From Methanocalculaceae archaeon (GTDB taxonomy: Archaea; Halobacteriota; Methanomicrobia; Methanomicrobiales; Methanocorpusculaceae): 12,992 nt of DNA. Shown in pieces: positions 2,892-8,612 of this stretch. Each line of letters opens with the position of its first letter. The stretch's first letter is position 1. Below the pieces are notes generated by a model. It ran no database searches. It was given only the letters and a program-made list of their open reading frames with translations, and had not been told where the DNA came from. The translations under genes and the position numbers were made by a program. The stretch lies in the NCBI GenBank assembly GCA_031255895.1, contig JAIRRQ010000014.1:1-12992 (forward strand), in the 5' to 3' direction.

Positions 2892-4001
2892 TCATTCCCT
2901 ACAAAACTGCAAAAATCGATTCCGAATCTCTGCCGGAGACAAAGGTATATTCGGCAATGCAGAATTACCTGGCGAAAGAATCACATGCACAAATTCCGTC
3001 TTCCGGTTTAGAGCACTCCGCAACGTGTCAGCTGAATGCACCCGTTCAACTGAGTTAATTCCTGCTGCAAGGGCCAAAAATCCAAGATCCGCAGTCTCGT
3101 ATGCAGGACTCATCTGATTTCCAGTACTCCCGAATACTCCGTTATCAAGGGCGATAATCGTCAGATTCAGACATTTCGCTGCAGCAACAACTGGTAAAAC
3201 CGCAGATCCAAGAATACTCCCGTCACCGTCAATCACCAGTATCTGTCTCTCCGGCATCGCAATGGCGCAACCGAGACCGATTGCCGACGCTTGTGTATAA
3301 CTTCCCAGCATGTAGAAATTTCCCGCACGATCCTTTGATGCATACAATTCTTTTGACGGAACTCCAATGTTGGAAATAATCACTGTTTTTGCATCCACTA
3401 CCTCTGTAACAACCCGGATAGCATCTAATCGCTTCATATGTGACTTCGCATATCCAGGAAGGGCCAGTATTCGCGCTGCAGTCTCTCTAGGTGGATACGC
3501 AATCTCAACTGGATCCTGTGGTTCCCAGCAAGATGGCTTGATCAGCGCAACAAACGGCGTATGTCTCTTATATGCTCCTGCAATCACTTCATCGAGACAG
3601 GTCAAATCTTCTCCTGTTGAAAATATTCGATACGGAATCTCATATATATCAAGAATTTTTGGCAACGGTTTGTTGAATGGAATTTGTGCACAAATAGTTT
3701 CGTTGCACACGCCTCGCCAGCTTGCAAAAATCGGTATCGGTAGTTCGTACATCCACGAAAGCGACATCAACGCATTCAGCATATTGCCAAGACCAGAACT
3801 CTGAATCGACATAATGGGCCTGCGACCACCGAGATACGCACCTGCACAAATACCTACACCATCCTCCTCGCGGGCGAGATCAATTACCTGAAATTTCGTC
3901 GAAAACAGAGCTGTCAATCGTTTGTTTTTATCGCATGGGAGTGACACAACAAGATCAATGCCTTGTTCCGCAAGAATATTGAGAACAATCTCTTCGTTCA
4001 T
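2892..4001 (-). CDS. comDE: Sulfopyruvate decarboxylase, fused alpha and beta subunits (ComDE)
   Basis: This thiamine-diphosphate enzyme decarboxylates sulfopyruvate to sulfoacetaldehyde in coenzyme M synthesis. Residues 1-160 match the ComD half, including the acidic EED (45-47) that supplies the catalytic glutamate contacting the cofactor pyrimidine ring. Residues about 185-369 match the ComE half, with the cofactor-binding motif starting GDGS (259-262) and ending at Asn287, followed by VFGSTGNQ (289-296). Methanococcales encode the halves separately. The single 369-residue chain resembles the fused form of Methanosarcinales and Methanomicrobiales. Its ATG overlaps the cysteate synthase stop in an ATGA, implying translational coupling, and it is the last gene of the operon. 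The linker between halves is about 25 residues (160-185). Both active-site halves look intact. Confidence 0.95.
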   Translation of the reverse strand: MNEEIVLNILAEQGIDLVVSLPCDKNKRLTALFSTKFQVIDLAREEDGVGICAGAYLGGRRPIMSIQSSGLGNMLNALMSLSWMYELPIPIFASWRGVCNETICAQIPFNKPLPKILDIYEIPYRIFSTGEDLTCLDEVIAGAYKRHTPFVALIKPSCWEPQDPVEIAYPPRETAARILALPGYAKSHMKRLDAIRVVTEVVDAKTVIISNIGVPSKELYASKDRAGNFYMLGSYTQASAIGLGCAIAMPERQILVIDGDGSILGSAVLPVVAAAKCLNLTIIALDNGVFGSTGNQMSPAYETADLGFLALAAGINSVERVHSADTLRSALNRKTEFVHVILSPGNSALPNIPLSPAEIRNRFLQFCRE

Positions 4002-5239
4002 ATCTCTGGCATTTCATCAACATTTACTGTTTCTGCGATTGGTATCGGAAAGATGTCGAAGTCCTCGCGAACCCGTACATACCCCCCGCCTGTGATGTTC
4101 AGCAGAATTGTATCTCGTGGATCAACTGTTCCGTTATTGACTGCAGATATTAGTGCAGCGGTCGCAACTGCTGCTGCCGGATCCAAGTCGACGCCATTTT
4201 CCGCATCAGAGAAGAGGCGGCCTGCATCTGCAGCCTTAGCGTTGTCGATAGCATACATATCATTGCCGCAGTACGTCATCGCCTCAAACACACCACCTGG
4301 TATGCTATAGGGAGGCGACCGGTTCGTTAGAACTGGTGCCGATACTTGTGCAATTGCCTCTTCTGCGTCTGGCATATCTCGTTCCAGTAGCAAAATTCGC
4401 CGTTCCTTCCATGCATTCACCATCGGGATGAATGGTAGATTCTGTGCCAGGTGTAGTTGAGGTACATTCTGACCGAATCGCCCGTCAGCCACGAGTCGCA
4501 TCGCCGCCTCCCAGGTTGCAATACCACCTGTTCCGGAACCAACTGCCTGGAAATAATGATCTGGCATGCGACGAATCGTGATTGCCGCGTCCAACAGAAC
4601 CGTTCCCATTCCGTCACGACGGGCAACATTTTTTGCCCCTCCTTCTGGCACATATCCCTGATGTTCAGTGATCCTGTTTGCAACCGTAATCGCATCAGTA
4701 TAATCTCCATGAACGGTGATCAATTTGATCATGTTTGGTTGTTTGGGTTCTGTCACTGTCCAGAGATTTTTTGTTGATGACTCCGGTACAACAATAACAA
4801 CCGATGTCCCAAATTCAGCAGCCATCTGGGCAAATGCCCTGCCTGTGTTTCCAGCGGATGCAATGACCATTGTTCCCCCGCCGTTTTCGGCGAATCGAAC
4901 GATGGTTGGCAGTGCTTCCAGCTCTTTGAACGATCCTGTTGTAACGAAACATTTTCGTTCGGGATAATAACCTGTAAACGTTACCCAGAGATTTGGCAAA
5001 CCAATTTCGCGACAGAGTGTCTGGCTATGAAATGTTATCGGTCGTGCCCTGGTAGACAATGTCCCGTGTACCGGTAGCCAGTCGATGTACCGGAATATTC
5101 CTGGTAGTTCGGGACGAACGATCAGCTGACGTGCTGCATACTCTGTTCGAATGAGACCGACATGTTTGTTGCAGGAAAGCGTGTAATGTTCAGGAAGAAT
5201 CTCTCCGCCTGCAACACATCGAAGCGTATAGTCTCCCAC
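3998..5239 (-). CDS. Cysteate synthase (threonine synthase-like, PLP-dependent)
   Basis: This 413-residue fold-type II PLP enzyme replaces the phosphate of O-phosphoserine with sulfite to give L-cysteate, the entry step of the Methanosarcinales/Methanomicrobiales coenzyme M pathway. The PLP lysine is Lys105 in TTGSFKE. The SAGNTGRAF (128-136) and GSGTGG (234-239) loops bind substrate carboxylate and cofactor phosphate. It resembles threonine synthase in length and motifs, and the cysteate assignment rests on direct coupling to ComDE. The start is GTG, not ATG: the preceding stop TAG abuts GTG directly, and a perfect AGGAGG lies 10 bases upstream. It ends in an ATGA overlap with comDE. A threonine synthase role cannot be excluded from motifs alone but is unlikely in this operon. 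In Methanosarcina acetivorans the same two genes are neighbours. Confidence 0.92.
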   Translation of the reverse strand: MGDYTLRCVAGGEILPEHYTLSCNKHVGLIRTEYAARQLIVRPELPGIFRYIDWLPVHGTLSTRARPITFHSQTLCREIGLPNLWVTFTGYYPERKCFVTTGSFKELEALPTIVRFAENGGGTMVIASAGNTGRAFAQMAAEFGTSVVIVVPESSTKNLWTVTEPKQPNMIKLITVHGDYTDAITVANRITEHQGYVPEGGAKNVARRDGMGTVLLDAAITIRRMPDHYFQAVGSGTGGIATWEAAMRLVADGRFGQNVPQLHLAQNLPFIPMVNAWKERRILLLERDMPDAEEAIAQVSAPVLTNRSPPYSIPGGVFEAMTYCGNDMYAIDNAKAADAGRLFSDAENGVDLDPAAAVATAALISAVNNGTVDPRDTILLNITGGGYVRVREDFDIFPIPIAETVNVDEMPEI

Positions 5240-6472
5240 CTAGAGCGGTCCTCCTATTTTCCATTCTCCTGTTCTGATTTTGTTGCGCAGCATCAAAGCT
5301 GCAATCTCTCCTCGTGTCCGATCGGATTGTCGCAGAACAATCGGAATGTTGCCTGTTGTTGTGTGAAGCGTGCTATTTTTCGTCGAAAAAACATGATTGG
5401 GGCAGACCACAGTACAGGTTAGGCAGCCCATGCAGGATTTCGTAATCGACAGATCGTGGTGTATTGCCCCACGGGGACAAAGATCGCGGCATCTGTTGCA
5501 GTCCAGAGTTTTGCATTTGTCCGGTTCGACGCTGATGCGGGGATCACCACTCCACGCTTCGGAATATGTTGCGACATCGAATGTTGTCCTGTTTAAAACG
5601 TTGGCAATCGGCAGAGGTATATTTTCATCGAGAATGGACAATGCCGCAATCGCGGTATCGTCTGTTACGGGGATCGCAGTCGCAACTGATGTGAGACACT
5701 CACATCCGGATTTCATTTTGAATCCCCCCATGAGATTCGGATCCATCTGCCACATGTCGGCGGCGAGGGAGAGGTTTGGTCTTACTGCAGAGGTTCGTGT
5801 ACCGGTGCCGATGATTATACCTGGTGCACCATTGACGAGGGCTGCCGTTCCAGGACTGTGATACTTGAGTTCTGGATCGTTTTCCAGTGGATTGATCTCA
5901 CCGCATCCGGAAAATGTTGCTTCACGCATGTTTCCTTGCATCGGCAGAACGGAAAAGATCGTGGTGATCTCTTCTTCACCAGGATTCACGAAGGCCATGT
6001 AATTTTTGAATGCGCCGCGAGTGATGATTATCTTTGCCGAGGACATGTCTGAGAGCGTGATCTGTTTAACGATTGTTCCTGCATCGGTTTCGATCACTGC
6101 CTCGACGGATTTCCCTGTAACGAGATCGGCGAACAAATGACCGCCTCCATATCCCGAATCGCTCGATTGTGCGGTCCCGTACACCATGGCATCTACATGA
6201 CCGTTATTTTCGTTTGGACATGGGCCAATATGTGCCGGGATGCCGTTCAGTGTCAATTTGCATGCATGAATAAACGACCCCGTAGGGGCTGCCTGGAAGG
6301 CAAGAATTGCTGCGGTACCTGACATAACGCCGAATGTTCCGCAGGTGACAACGTCAACGTCTTCGGGTGTTATTGTCTCTCCGGAGCGGATATGCTTTTT
6401 GAATTCGGATGCCGTCCAAATGACTGCTGTTCCATTGGATATTTTCGTATTGATATTTTCGATTGATTTCAT
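5240..6472 (-). CDS. mmp16: Methanogenesis marker protein 16 (DUF39 domain plus two-cluster ferredoxin)
   Basis: This 410-residue protein belongs to the family found only in methanogens, biochemical role unproven. Residues about 1-300 form the DUF39/COG1900-type domain, with GTFGVMSG (45-52), GCGEINPLENDP (189-200) and cysteines at 44, 71, 85, 190, 257 and 259. The C-terminal region holds a ferredoxin domain: Cys320, 325, 328, 332 followed by Pro, and Cys347, 350, 353, 357 followed by Pro, enough for two [4Fe-4S] clusters. The related aspartate semialdehyde sulfurtransferase makes homocysteine by reductive thiolation of an aldehyde. Because it is fused to the coenzyme M operon, I infer an analogous step on sulfoacetaldehyde. 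I chose the ATG at 6472, which overlaps the upstream stop (ATGA) and follows a GGAGGG. A frame extension to 6565 would overlap the neighbour by about 97 bases. Confidence 0.92.
   Translation of the reverse strand: MKSIENINTKISNGTAVIWTASEFKKHIRSGETITPEDVDVVTCGTFGVMSGTAAILAFQAAPTGSFIHACKLTLNGIPAHIGPCPNENNGHVDAMVYGTAQSSDSGYGGGHLFADLVTGKSVEAVIETDAGTIVKQITLSDMSSAKIIITRGAFKNYMAFVNPGEEEITTIFSVLPMQGNMREATFSGCGEINPLENDPELKYHSPGTAALVNGAPGIIIGTGTRTSAVRPNLSLAADMWQMDPNLMGGFKMKSGCECLTSVATAIPVTDDTAIAALSILDENIPLPIANVLNRTTFDVATYSEAWSGDPRISVEPDKCKTLDCNRCRDLCPRGAIHHDLSITKSCMGCLTCTVVCPNHVFSTKNSTLHTTTGNIPIVLRQSDRTRGEIAALMLRNKIRTGEWKIGGPL
5250..5255 (-). promoter_or_regulatory. AGGAGG ribosome binding site deciding the GTG start of cysteate synthase
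   Basis: On the minus strand AGGAGG lies inside the end of the marker 16 gene, 10 bases before GTG (5239-5237). It is the strongest Shine-Dalgarno match in the window and supports the GTG start directly abutting the upstream TAG. Confidence 0.75.
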
Positions 6473-7113
6473 AAGATCACGATTCCCTCCACTCTCACAT
6501 GAAGACCATAGGATTTCTGCATGATCGTGTTGACAAGACCTGTATGTGTTCGATGCATCATGCAAACTCCTGGGAGAAATGGCATTCGAGTGCCGAATTC
6601 AGGCGTTTTTCGGACGACATTTGCAACTCCTTCAAAACCTATCATATGGTAATGTCTGAGTTCAATGGCGTTTCTGTTTTCTCGTGCAAATGCAGGTCCG
6701 ACGACGTTACCGGTGATGAGACCCGATACCGGGTCTGTTTCGAGAACTTTGATTACATGCTGGACGGGGCAACCCGCACCGATCGGTCTGCCGGTGACAA
6801 TGTCACCTGCAGTTATGTTGAGAGTTTCAACGAGATCTGGCCTGAATGGCAGAACTATCTTTCGTGCTGAGGGTTCTCCAGGAAATGCGGTGATGATGAA
6901 GTCGTATGGTGCTCCTATTACATCAATGCCGGTGTAATCGGCTTCAAGACCACAGAAATTGCTAGTGGTGAAAGTCGCTTGTTGGTTATCCTCTGGTGTG
7001 TAGTAAGGGCACTGATCAACATGTTTGATGCCTTTTATCACCGCGGTGGTAAATGCGTCACAGTTGTCCATGCCGCAGGCACCGCAATTTTTGTTTGGTG
7101 GAGTCCAGATCAT
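6469..7113 (-). CDS. [4Fe-4S] protein of unknown function in the coenzyme M operon
   Basis: A 214-residue protein opening with NCGACGMDNCDAF, where Cys10, 13, 18 and 35 form a C-x2-C-x4-C-x16-C pattern. This resembles the small [4Fe-4S] domain (PF04060 type) of corrinoid iron-sulfur proteins and related redox proteins. The remaining about 170 residues are unfamiliar. They contain possible metal or cluster ligands in GRPIGAGCPVQHV (Cys115), ELRHYHM (His154, His156) and PGVCMMHRTH (Cys184, His187, His190). No signal peptide or membrane segment is visible, so it is probably cytoplasmic. A strong GGGGAG precedes its ATG, which directly follows the GTPase TAG, and its own stop overlaps the marker 16 start (ATGA). 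That coupling suggests a 1:1 partner of marker 16, perhaps an electron or cluster donor. This role is an inference. Confidence 0.85.
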   Translation of the reverse strand: MIWTPPNKNCGACGMDNCDAFTTAVIKGIKHVDQCPYYTPEDNQQATFTTSNFCGLEADYTGIDVIGAPYDFIITAFPGEPSARKIVLPFRPDLVETLNITAGDIVTGRPIGAGCPVQHVIKVLETDPVSGLITGNVVGPAFARENRNAIELRHYHMIGFEGVANVVRKTPEFGTRMPFLPGVCMMHRTHTGLVNTIMQKSYGLHVRVEGIVIL

Positions 7114-7821
7114 CTACTCTCCCCTGAACAGATTGTCAGGTGCGGTGAGTGGTCGGATAACACCGAAGTGTTCCTGCCAGCCTGTTTCTTTTTTACCGAT
7201 GCACACGGTGCAGACTCCAAGCGGTGGAATTCCACGGAGTGTGTCTTTTTCACTTTCCGCGGGTTTCATCCTTTTGATGACCTGCATGAGGTAACGCATA
7301 CCCGTCCCTTGGATGGCGTTGGTTTCGATGATGTCTACCTCTGGGGCAACCTGGCGAATTCCTTCGCGGAAGACTTCTTTTTCGACTTGAGATATGAGAT
7401 CGATTTTGGTGACTACAGCAACGTCCGCGAAGGCGATCATTGGTGCCATTTTCAGCGGTGCATGCGTGCCGGAAATTGAGGAAAGAACACATATGCCTAA
7501 GGAATGGGTGGTGTATGGTGTACATCGCAGACAAAGTCCAGCACTTTCGTAGAGAAGGTATTCGGCACCGAGTTTATCGGCCCAAAGGAGTGCGTCACGG
7601 ATCACCATGATACCCATGTGGTCCGGGCACATATCCCCTGAGTACACTTTTTTGGTGGGAATTCCGAATTCTGCGGCAAGTTCTTCGTCCTCCCATGCCT
7701 GCACAACGTCGATTTTGAGGTAGGCGATTTTTGAGGTTCCGAGGTTTCTGATGATCTGTTTGACAACTGCTGTTTTACCGGCGCTAGGGGGTCCTGCGAT
7801 TGCGATGAGTCGGACGTTCAT
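7114..7821 (-). CDS. P-loop GTPase of the HypB/CobW-like (SIMIBI) kind, unknown target
   Basis: A 235-residue protein with Walker A GPPSAGKT (10-17) near the N-terminus and a guanine-specificity motif TKID (138-141). This arrangement is typical of SIMIBI-class metallochaperone GTPases such as HypB, UreG and CobW. Cysteines are paired: Cys65 with a nearby His in MCPDH, Cys97 and Cys100 in GLCLRC, and Cys204 and Cys207 in GVCTVC. These could bind a metal or Fe-S species. Sequence around ESAGLCLRC (92-100) sits where HypB has its own ENxGNxxCP-like segment. The ATG overlaps the ABC ATPase stop (ATGA), and the gene abuts the [4Fe-4S] gene. The context suggests metal or cluster delivery to neighbouring Fe-S proteins; the client is unknown. 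Confidence 0.85.
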   Translation of the reverse strand: MNVRLIAIAGPPSAGKTAVVKQIIRNLGTSKIAYLKIDVVQAWEDEELAAEFGIPTKKVYSGDMCPDHMGIMVIRDALLWADKLGAEYLLYESAGLCLRCTPYTTHSLGICVLSSISGTHAPLKMAPMIAFADVAVVTKIDLISQVEKEVFREGIRQVAPEVDIIETNAIQGTGMRYLMQVIKRMKPAESEKDTLRGIPPLGVCTVCIGKKETGWQEHFGVIRPLTAPDNLFRGE

Positions 7822-8612
7822 GCTTCGATTTCCCTTGAAACAGTGAGGAGCTCACCGGATCGAATACGTTCTCGCAGTTTCATTATGTCACTGTCCATTT
7901 TTGCGATTTTGGTCAGTGTGGCGTGTTCAGCACCTGCGGGCGTGAGGATTTTTTCGACAGCACCGCATTTCATGACGATTCGCTTTTCTGTGAGGAGTGC
8001 GACGTAAGGATCGTGGGTGACAAAGATGATCGTTTTGTGTTTTTCCCGCAAAATTTTAATGACGCGATCTTTGAAGATCCCGGCATTTTCAACTTCATCG
8101 AGCAGAATAATTGGGGTGTTGGAGATGTTGACGGCGTCGGCAATGAAGAGACTGCGAGTCTGTCCCCCGGAGAGTGAGCTCACGTGCATACGTTCTGTAA
8201 TTTTCTCTCCAGTGAATTGATTGGCAAGATCGATTACACTCGTGATGATACCTTTGTCTTCCATTTTGCGGGAACGCAGATGCATGGCGAGAAATTCTTC
8301 GACGGTGAGGTCGGCAAGGCACTTGTTGTTCTGGGTGATCATAGCGATTGGTTTTTTAGAGGGATCACGGACAAGATCTTCAGCAGGTTCAGATCCATTG
8401 ACGAGGATCTTTCGTCTAGTGATGGTATCTCCTTGTGCGAAAACTTCGATATCATTGATGAATGCGGTTTTACCGGAGCCAGTTGGCCCTACAACGGAGA
8501 TGGTGTCACCTGGATGGATGGTGATTTCGGTGAAATTTTCCGGATCTCCAGTACAGGTGGTTCCGGGAAGTATAGTGAGGGTTTGTACGGGGGATAGAGT
8601 GTTTAGTGTCAT
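7818..8612 (-). CDS. Stand-alone ABC-type ATPase, first gene of the coenzyme M operon
   Basis: A 264-residue single nucleotide-binding domain with Walker A GPTGSGKT (42-49), Q-loop Gln94, signature LSGGQ (147-151), Walker B IILLDE (168-173) and H-loop His200 in VTHD. All catalytic motifs are canonical. The last about 60 residues extend past the core and include a charged, helical stretch. No membrane protein is encoded nearby. It is therefore probably a soluble ABC ATPase, similar in concept to SufC or the AtwA-type activation ATPases of methanogens, and not a transporter subunit. A TATA-like TTATAA 28 bases upstream, with no ribosome binding site, indicates a leaderless operon mRNA starting at this ATG. 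The target is unknown; action on a metalloprotein of the operon is an inference. Confidence 0.88.
   Translation of the reverse strand: MTLNTLSPVQTLTILPGTTCTGDPENFTEITIHPGDTISVVGPTGSGKTAFINDIEVFAQGDTITRRKILVNGSEPAEDLVRDPSKKPIAMITQNNKCLADLTVEEFLAMHLRSRKMEDKGIITSVIDLANQFTGEKITERMHVSSLSGGQTRSLFIADAVNISNTPIILLDEVENAGIFKDRVIKILREKHKTIIFVTHDPYVALLTEKRIVMKCGAVEKILTPAGAEHATLTKIAKMDSDIMKLRERIRSGELLTVSREIEA

Follow-up and report, generated by a model that had tools for sequence, protein, structure and literature searches.

A predicted six-gene operon for coenzyme M

The window analysed here is a 12,992-nucleotide stretch of DNA from a Methanocalculaceae archaeon, and between positions 8612 and 2892 it carries six minus-strand genes that form a predicted operon for coenzyme M synthesis. 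The first three encode an ATP-binding cassette (ABC)-type ATPase (7818..8612; PF00005, 55.9 bits, cut-off 25), a HypB/UreG-like (G3E) GTPase (7114..7821; PF02492, 47 bits, cut-off 20.7) and a COG2000-type iron-sulfur (Fe-S) protein (6469..7113; PF04060, 43.5 bits, cut-off 23), and are referred to below as the module. They are followed by Mmp16, also called ComF (COG1900d), a predicted coenzyme M synthase of 410 aa with a fused two-cluster ferredoxin (5240..6472; TIGR03287, PF01837), by cysteate synthase with a GTG start (3998..5239; TIGR03844, 615 bits, cut-off 324.9), and by a fused sulfopyruvate decarboxylase, ComDE (2892..4001), whose alpha part scores 206.5 bits against TIGR03845 (cut-off 147.95) and whose beta part scores 223.8 bits against TIGR03846 (cut-off 221.5).

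Every junction in this row is tight. The ATPase and GTPase genes, the Fe-S and mmp16 genes (where the sequence reads ttATGAaa), and the cysteate synthase and comDE genes overlap by 4 bases, and the two remaining pairs, GTPase/Fe-S and Mmp16/cysteate synthase, abut. These gene ends agree with an earlier note on this DNA, which had described a six-gene cluster with ATGA overlaps or abutting junctions and Mmp16 directly before cysteate synthase and ComDE. The genome to which the window belongs is 62% complete, with 792 kb in 122 contigs.

Mmp16 reaches 446 bits against TIGR03287 (cut-off 363.95) and 282 bits for the PF01837 core. Its listed open reading frame opens at a TTG at 6565, and the ATG at 6472 gives the 410-residue protein. 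Eight cysteines, arranged as two groups of the 4Fe-4S type, occur in the C-terminal ferredoxin part, which exceeds the cut-offs of PF00037 and PF12838, in keeping with the fused two-cluster ferredoxin proposed earlier. The PF01837 core is shared with L-aspartate semialdehyde sulfurtransferase (L-ASST, COG1900a), for which the accessible part of PMC12068725 gives as marks a CBS domain in the COG1900 subunit and NIL in a separate ferredoxin subunit; the window's Mmp16 has no CBS or NIL match in Pfam and carries its own ferredoxin part.

The earlier note had cast Mmp16 as the reductive thiolation enzyme of coenzyme M synthesis and the terminal step as still missing. The assignment is supported, and the step had already been published: in the accessible part of PMC12068725 (2025), Mmp16 of Methanosarcina acetivorans is identified by deletion as the main coenzyme M synthase. 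The mutant described there grew slowly without coenzyme M, was auxotrophic without sulfide and was complemented; the role of the enzyme, from sulfoacetaldehyde to coenzyme M, rests on genetics and transcriptomics, and coenzyme M formation by Mmp16 expressed in E. coli is cited in the same text. The window's protein shares with that relative a family score over the cut-off, the fused ferredoxin and a place adjoining cysteate synthase and ComDE, and differs in its setting, a single row of genes with the three-gene module upstream and a fused ComDE downstream. By analogy, it likely catalyses the last step of coenzyme M synthesis, a point that adds nothing new beyond what the accessible part of PMC12068725 reports.

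According to the Figure 2 legend of the same paper, coenzyme M genes frequently have as neighbours the genes for an ATPase, for a GTPase that binds Ni2+ and for an Fe-S protein of the COG2000 family, the name adopted here; it gives their role as unknown. The ABC ATPase has a nucleotide-binding domain, as its PF00005 score indicates, and shows 67% mean column identity in a 24-row alignment. Among the six operon genes neither Pfam nor NCBIfam detects a permease, so the ATPase is without a membrane partner in the operon.

HypB/UreG-like GTPases are, by family, metal inserters. The window's GTPase has the cobW/HypB/UreG domain of the G3E superfamily, and its profile matches UreG (4hi0) and HypB (2hf8). 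Its conserved motifs are CPDH, CLRC and a C-terminal CTxC, and CPDH aligns with the CPH of UreG, which has a role in nickel binding. The protein nevertheless differs from HypB and UreG proper: it falls far short of both equivalog cut-offs (66.4 of 121.2 bits for HypB, 28.4 of 204.2 bits for UreG), has the additional CTxC, and stands with sulfonate genes.

The Fe-S protein combines an N-terminal 4Fe-4S motif, like that of the large subunit of the corrinoid iron-sulfur protein (CFeSP), with a separate C-terminal domain. The resemblance to CFeSP lies in the PF04060 motif, and the score for the acetyl-CoA decarbonylase/synthase gamma subunit is 30.5 of 306 bits; the C-terminal domain of 150 residues gave no convincing match in fold searches, where absence from the match list excludes no relationship. 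In each of four forms, 87 Fe-S proteins in all, at least 90% of the sequences retain the N-terminal C10, C13, C18 and C35 and the C-terminal R109, C115, H119, C184, H190, R207 and E209. In a structure model with a mean predicted local distance difference test score (pLDDT) of 90.3, predicted strands begin at H119 and at H190, and C115 and C184 lie in the preceding loops. This arrangement suggests that C115, H119, C184 and H190 form a second metal site.

The module in Archaea and Bacillota

The distribution of the module was analysed in named-genome loci, the best 80 of 207 Fe-S protein loci, of which 34 are bacterial by title (including Heliobacterium, Pelotomaculum, Thermincola and Dethiobacter) and 46 were counted as archaeal. 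One locus titled Bacilli bacterium (L006) carries a methanogen coenzyme M operon; it is probably a wrongly binned contig and was counted as archaeal. Two genome samples were also scored: 148 archaeal genomes of the window's phylum, with Methanobacteriota outside the sample, using curated cut-offs and, for the Fe-S protein, E 1e-20; and 199 Bacillota genomes, 13 of which were already known to have the module.

ATPase, GTPase and Fe-S genes are all present at 34 of 34 bacterial loci, and at 43, 45 and 46 of the 46 archaeal loci, respectively. Their order is identical wherever all three occur (34/34 bacterial and 43/43 archaeal, 77 loci together). The three genes are thus a module conserved in two domains of life. 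Mmp16, cysteate synthase and ComDE are found at 43, 41 and 39 of the 46 archaeal loci and, each of them, at 0 of the 34 bacterial loci.

In the archaeal sample, the Fe-S protein occurs in 34 genomes, cysteate synthase in 62, Mmp16 in 69, and ComA (phosphosulfolactate synthase), the other sulfonate synthase considered here, in 15. Cysteate synthase is present in 33 of the 34 genomes with the Fe-S protein against 29 of the 114 others (Fisher 1e-14), and the sole exception is a genome that is 70% complete. Within the window's order, the two proteins agree in all 25 genomes, 16 having both and 9 neither. Of the 34 Fe-S genomes, 30 have the Fe-S gene no more than 5 kb from cysteate synthase and 23 have it that close to mmp16; in seven it is near cysteate synthase and not near mmp16. 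Among the 11 genomes with Mmp16 and without cysteate synthase, none has the Fe-S protein.

Mmp16 itself keeps close to cysteate synthase across relatives: the two lie within 8 kb in 43 of the 58 genomes of the phylum sample having both, and in each of the 15 genomes with Mmp16 from the window's own order. All 37 named loci that hold the genes for Fe-S protein, Mmp16, cysteate synthase and ComDE carry them in that sequence. Several loci and genomes nevertheless keep the module and cysteate synthase without Mmp16 nearby. At L019 and L037 (titled Methanogenium) and at L099 of genome G276, the module, cysteate synthase and ComDE are retained and Mmp16 is not in the operon; the G276 operon reads ATPase, GTPase, Fe-S, cysteate synthase, ComDE, and this 99% complete genome has no Mmp16 over the TIGR03287 cut-off. 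These three offer a natural case for a substitute last step, perhaps by L-ASST. Genome G259 likewise combines the Fe-S protein with cysteate synthase and lacks an Mmp16 over the cut-off. Diverged Fe-S copies in families f8 and f22 (89 to 111 bits) lie between cysteate synthase and comDE in L084 and L087, and after cysteate synthase, with Mmp16 elsewhere, in L085 and L090. In genome G223, where neither cysteate synthase nor Mmp16 is found over the cut-off, the locus is decayed (L098:5870-7295), with the ATPase in two pieces and the start of the GTPase running into the end of ComDE. Taken together, the archaeal data tie the module more tightly to the enzyme that forms the sulfonate than to the last, thiolating step.

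In Bacillota, the partner is ComA. It is present in 31 of the 34 host genomes of bacterial module loci and inside the 10 kb flanks of the module at eight loci; the three copies scanned are all over the curated cut-off. ComA stands just upstream of the module in L015, L018, L078 and L080, with a ComB-type phosphatase in between in L015 and L018, and 5 to 7 kb downstream in L045, L046, L055 and L068. The 199-genome sample holds 17 genomes with the Fe-S protein and 76 with ComA over the cut-off, and ComA occurs in 16 of the 17 against 60 of the 182 others (Fisher 8e-7). In the four newly found genomes with the Fe-S protein, ComA is present in all four, and the Fe-S gene adjoins the GTPase gene and, except at one contig end, the ATPase gene. 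Of the 17, 5 have no match to COG1900 (PF01837, which includes Mmp16 and L-ASST). A ComA tree with 75 rows requires no fewer than 7 changes in module presence, 4 of them imposed by supported branches, so gain or loss of the module has happened repeatedly.

The association is therefore with two sulfite-consuming sulfonate synthases rather than with Mmp16, which bears on the proposal that the module matures Mmp16, through metal or cluster insertion by the GTPase and ATPase or through electrons or sulfur from the Fe-S protein. The 4-base overlap that places Mmp16 directly after the Fe-S gene, the presence of Mmp16 at 43 of 46 archaeal module loci and the metal-inserting function of the GTPase family all speak for such a role. 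It is nevertheless improbable given the 34 bacterial loci with the module and without Mmp16, the five Fe-S Bacillota without a COG1900 match, the two archaeal genomes (G276 and G259) in which both the Fe-S protein and cysteate synthase occur and no Mmp16 exceeds the cut-off, and the 11 Mmp16 genomes in which both cysteate synthase and the Fe-S protein are missing.

Sulfite supply as a possible function

The sulfonate of coenzyme M is made from sulfite, yet the sulfur that methanogens use is mostly sulfide, and their methanogenesis is inhibited by sulfite. Cysteate synthase (PF00291) and ComA (PF02679) both add sulfite to a three-carbon substrate. Because these enzymes belong to different families and share sulfite as their simplest common need, the module may supply it. 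From gene context, the three upstream genes would work as one module providing sulfite to cysteate synthase, with Mmp16 likely at the last step; we give this reading a probability of roughly 0.45. The accessible parts of three papers leave the sulfite source for coenzyme M open or hypothetical (PMC3448663, PMC6286981, PMC5116941).

A possible mechanism can be outlined. The GTPase would load a metal into the Fe-S protein at the site of C115, H119, C184 and H190, and the ATPase would power either assembly or the transfer of electrons. Once complete, the Fe-S protein would, by itself or together with a partner, convert reduced sulfur to sulfite, which cysteate synthase would add to phosphoserine; transamination, ComDE (yielding sulfoacetaldehyde) and Mmp16 would complete coenzyme M. 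A bolder form of the proposal, which we hold tentatively, is that ATPase, GTPase and Fe-S protein constitute a route from sulfide or other reduced sulfur to sulfite in strict anaerobes: a new nucleotide-driven metalloenzyme system that methanogens would use in making coenzyme M and Bacillota in making sulfolactate, and that would give way to sulfate reduction genes in organisms using sulfate. With three conserved genes accompanying the enzymes that consume sulfite in two domains, the gap in the sulfite source would become a gene deletion with a clear chemical rescue.

If the module supplies sulfite, another sulfite source may stand in where it is missing. This was considered in 79 archaeal cysteate synthase loci, 46 with the module (40 from the best-80 set) and 33 without. 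Genes for ATP sulfurylase, adenosine 5'-phosphosulfate (APS) or 3'-phosphoadenosine 5'-phosphosulfate (PAPS) reductase, or Hdr occur, within the stretches covered, at 0 of the 46 and at 14 of the 33. The two sets were collected in different ways and the module loci include many close relatives, so the contrast is given without a p-value. In L104, ATP sulfurylase and APS reductase adjoin mmp16; a PAPS reductase adjoins it in L123 and L124, with 154.6 and 162.2 bits against one equivalog cut-off of 154 and below the cysH cut-off. Eight of the 14 replacement loci have HdrABC beside cysteate synthase (L110, L111, L115, L130, L131, L132, L133 and L134, families f7 and f14), where both scanned copies of HdrA include an FlpD (MvhD) part, and three have an HdrB-like protein with an Fe-S part. 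According to the accessible part of PMC12068725, hdrABC are among the genes changed in coenzyme M starvation. In Bacillota, the module-free locus L204 has CysH and ATP sulfurylase, both over the cut-off, 1.4 kb downstream of comA, and among ComA-bearing genomes ATP sulfurylase (PF01747) is found in 28 of the 60 that lack the Fe-S protein and in 1 of the 16 that have it (p 0.003). The sulfate route thus resembles the module in adjoining coenzyme M genes or comA in some module-free loci; it differs in starting from sulfate, and its proteins are unrelated to those of the module. In L104, the cysteate synthase of genome G242 is split into two open frames (L104:10649-11913), a real break or an assembly error.

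A number of observations weigh against sulfite supply. As to co-occurrence, 29 of the 62 archaeal cysteate synthase genomes are without the Fe-S protein, including 3 of 3 sampled genomes of genus g60, whose loci show no replacement genes, and the protein is found in 0 of the 15 archaeal ComA genomes. Four archaeal genomes have the Fe-S gene away from cysteate synthase: G267, where none was found, G231, and the two family f14 genomes G229 and G259, which carry a side form of the protein. Among the 76 ComA Bacillota genomes, 60 have no Fe-S protein and 32 of these have no PF01747 match either; COG1900 is also enriched with the Fe-S protein in Bacillota (12/17 against 54/182).

As to the replacement genes, heterodisulfide reduction may be all that the Hdr genes next to cysteate synthase are for, and two of the HdrABC loci, L133 (G231) and L134 (G229), are in genomes with the Fe-S protein elsewhere. 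L204 is alone among 60 module-free ComA loci in showing sulfate-to-sulfite genes. In archaeal cysteate synthase genomes, ATP sulfurylase occurs in 2 of 33 with the Fe-S protein against 6 of 29 without (p 0.13), and the contrast becomes 0/31 against 8/31 (p 0.005) only if two f14 genomes are moved across. An independent-pairs test of module against ATP sulfurylase on the ComA tree was not significant either way, with too few pairs: taking the module first, 0 of 4 pairs changed the same way and 1-2 the opposite way; taking ATP sulfurylase first, mostly 0 of 6 changed the same way and 1-3 the opposite way, one contrary pair appearing in a few of 200 pairings. Finally, fold searches with the Fe-S protein gave no match supporting sulfite formation, and none that was convincing between its C-terminal domain and the sulfite-forming siroheme reductases or Hdr-like sulfur oxidation proteins, although absence from the list excludes nothing.

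The module could instead act in sulfonate synthesis without being the sulfite source, by assembling or protecting a factor shared by cysteate synthase and ComA or by detoxifying free sulfite. Such a role fits the co-occurrence without needing sulfide-oxidising chemistry, and four loci have an NMT1/SsuA-like protein next to the module, a hint of an oxyanion or sulfonate ligand. We consider it unlikely on the present evidence: a shared maturation need is improbable for enzymes from different families, and the sulfate-to-sulfite genes in the four module-free loci L104, L123, L124 and L204 would be left unexplained. Sulfite for coenzyme M could also come from siroheme Dsr-like proteins working in reverse, the module doing something else, a possibility stated in the accessible parts of the three papers on the sulfite source (PMC3448663, PMC6286981, PMC5116941); this appears rather improbable, as certain methanogens carry neither Dsr-LP nor Fsr according to the part of PMC3448663 that is accessible.

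Last, general trafficking of nickel or another metal, tied to methanogens by metal demand and to the operon by chance order, would suit the HypB/UreG-like motifs of the GTPase and a paralogous GTPase-ABC pair (type C, below) that adjoins a putative heavy-metal chelation protein in L092. It is very unlikely: in the window's order, all nine genomes lacking cysteate synthase are without the Fe-S protein too, one of them (G223) retains the ATPase, GTPase and ComDE genes only as fragments, and ComA is far above background in Fe-S Bacillota.

Related module forms and neighbouring genes

Two related forms of the module were found. In type B, a cysteine desulfurase-type protein lies between the GTPase and Fe-S genes (L086:6283-9628 and L100:6676-10139); the L100 copy, from Heliobacterium, adjoins a Cys/Met metabolism pyridoxal phosphate enzyme and a nitrogenase component 1-type protein. 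Type C is a GTPase and ATPase pair, accompanied by a DUF364/DUF4213 putative heavy-metal chelation protein, identified in L092, or by a DUF1858 solute-binding protein in L093; further copies are L095 and L091, the latter from contig C109 of the window's own genome. Together, these forms suggest a general metal or sulfur delivery machine, one branch of which is used for sulfonates.

The NMT1/SsuA-like substrate-binding-type proteins near the module are located at L099:3101-4042, L088:2808-3767, L086:11060-11989 and L103:3377-4348. One of these loci was scanned against libraries and the other three calls were made with a custom profile; the L099 copy scores below the SsuA family cut-off. In the window itself, a short methionine synthase-type protein is encoded on the same strand at 1262-2167, on the downstream side of the operon (PRK00957, 368 bits, cut-off 258).

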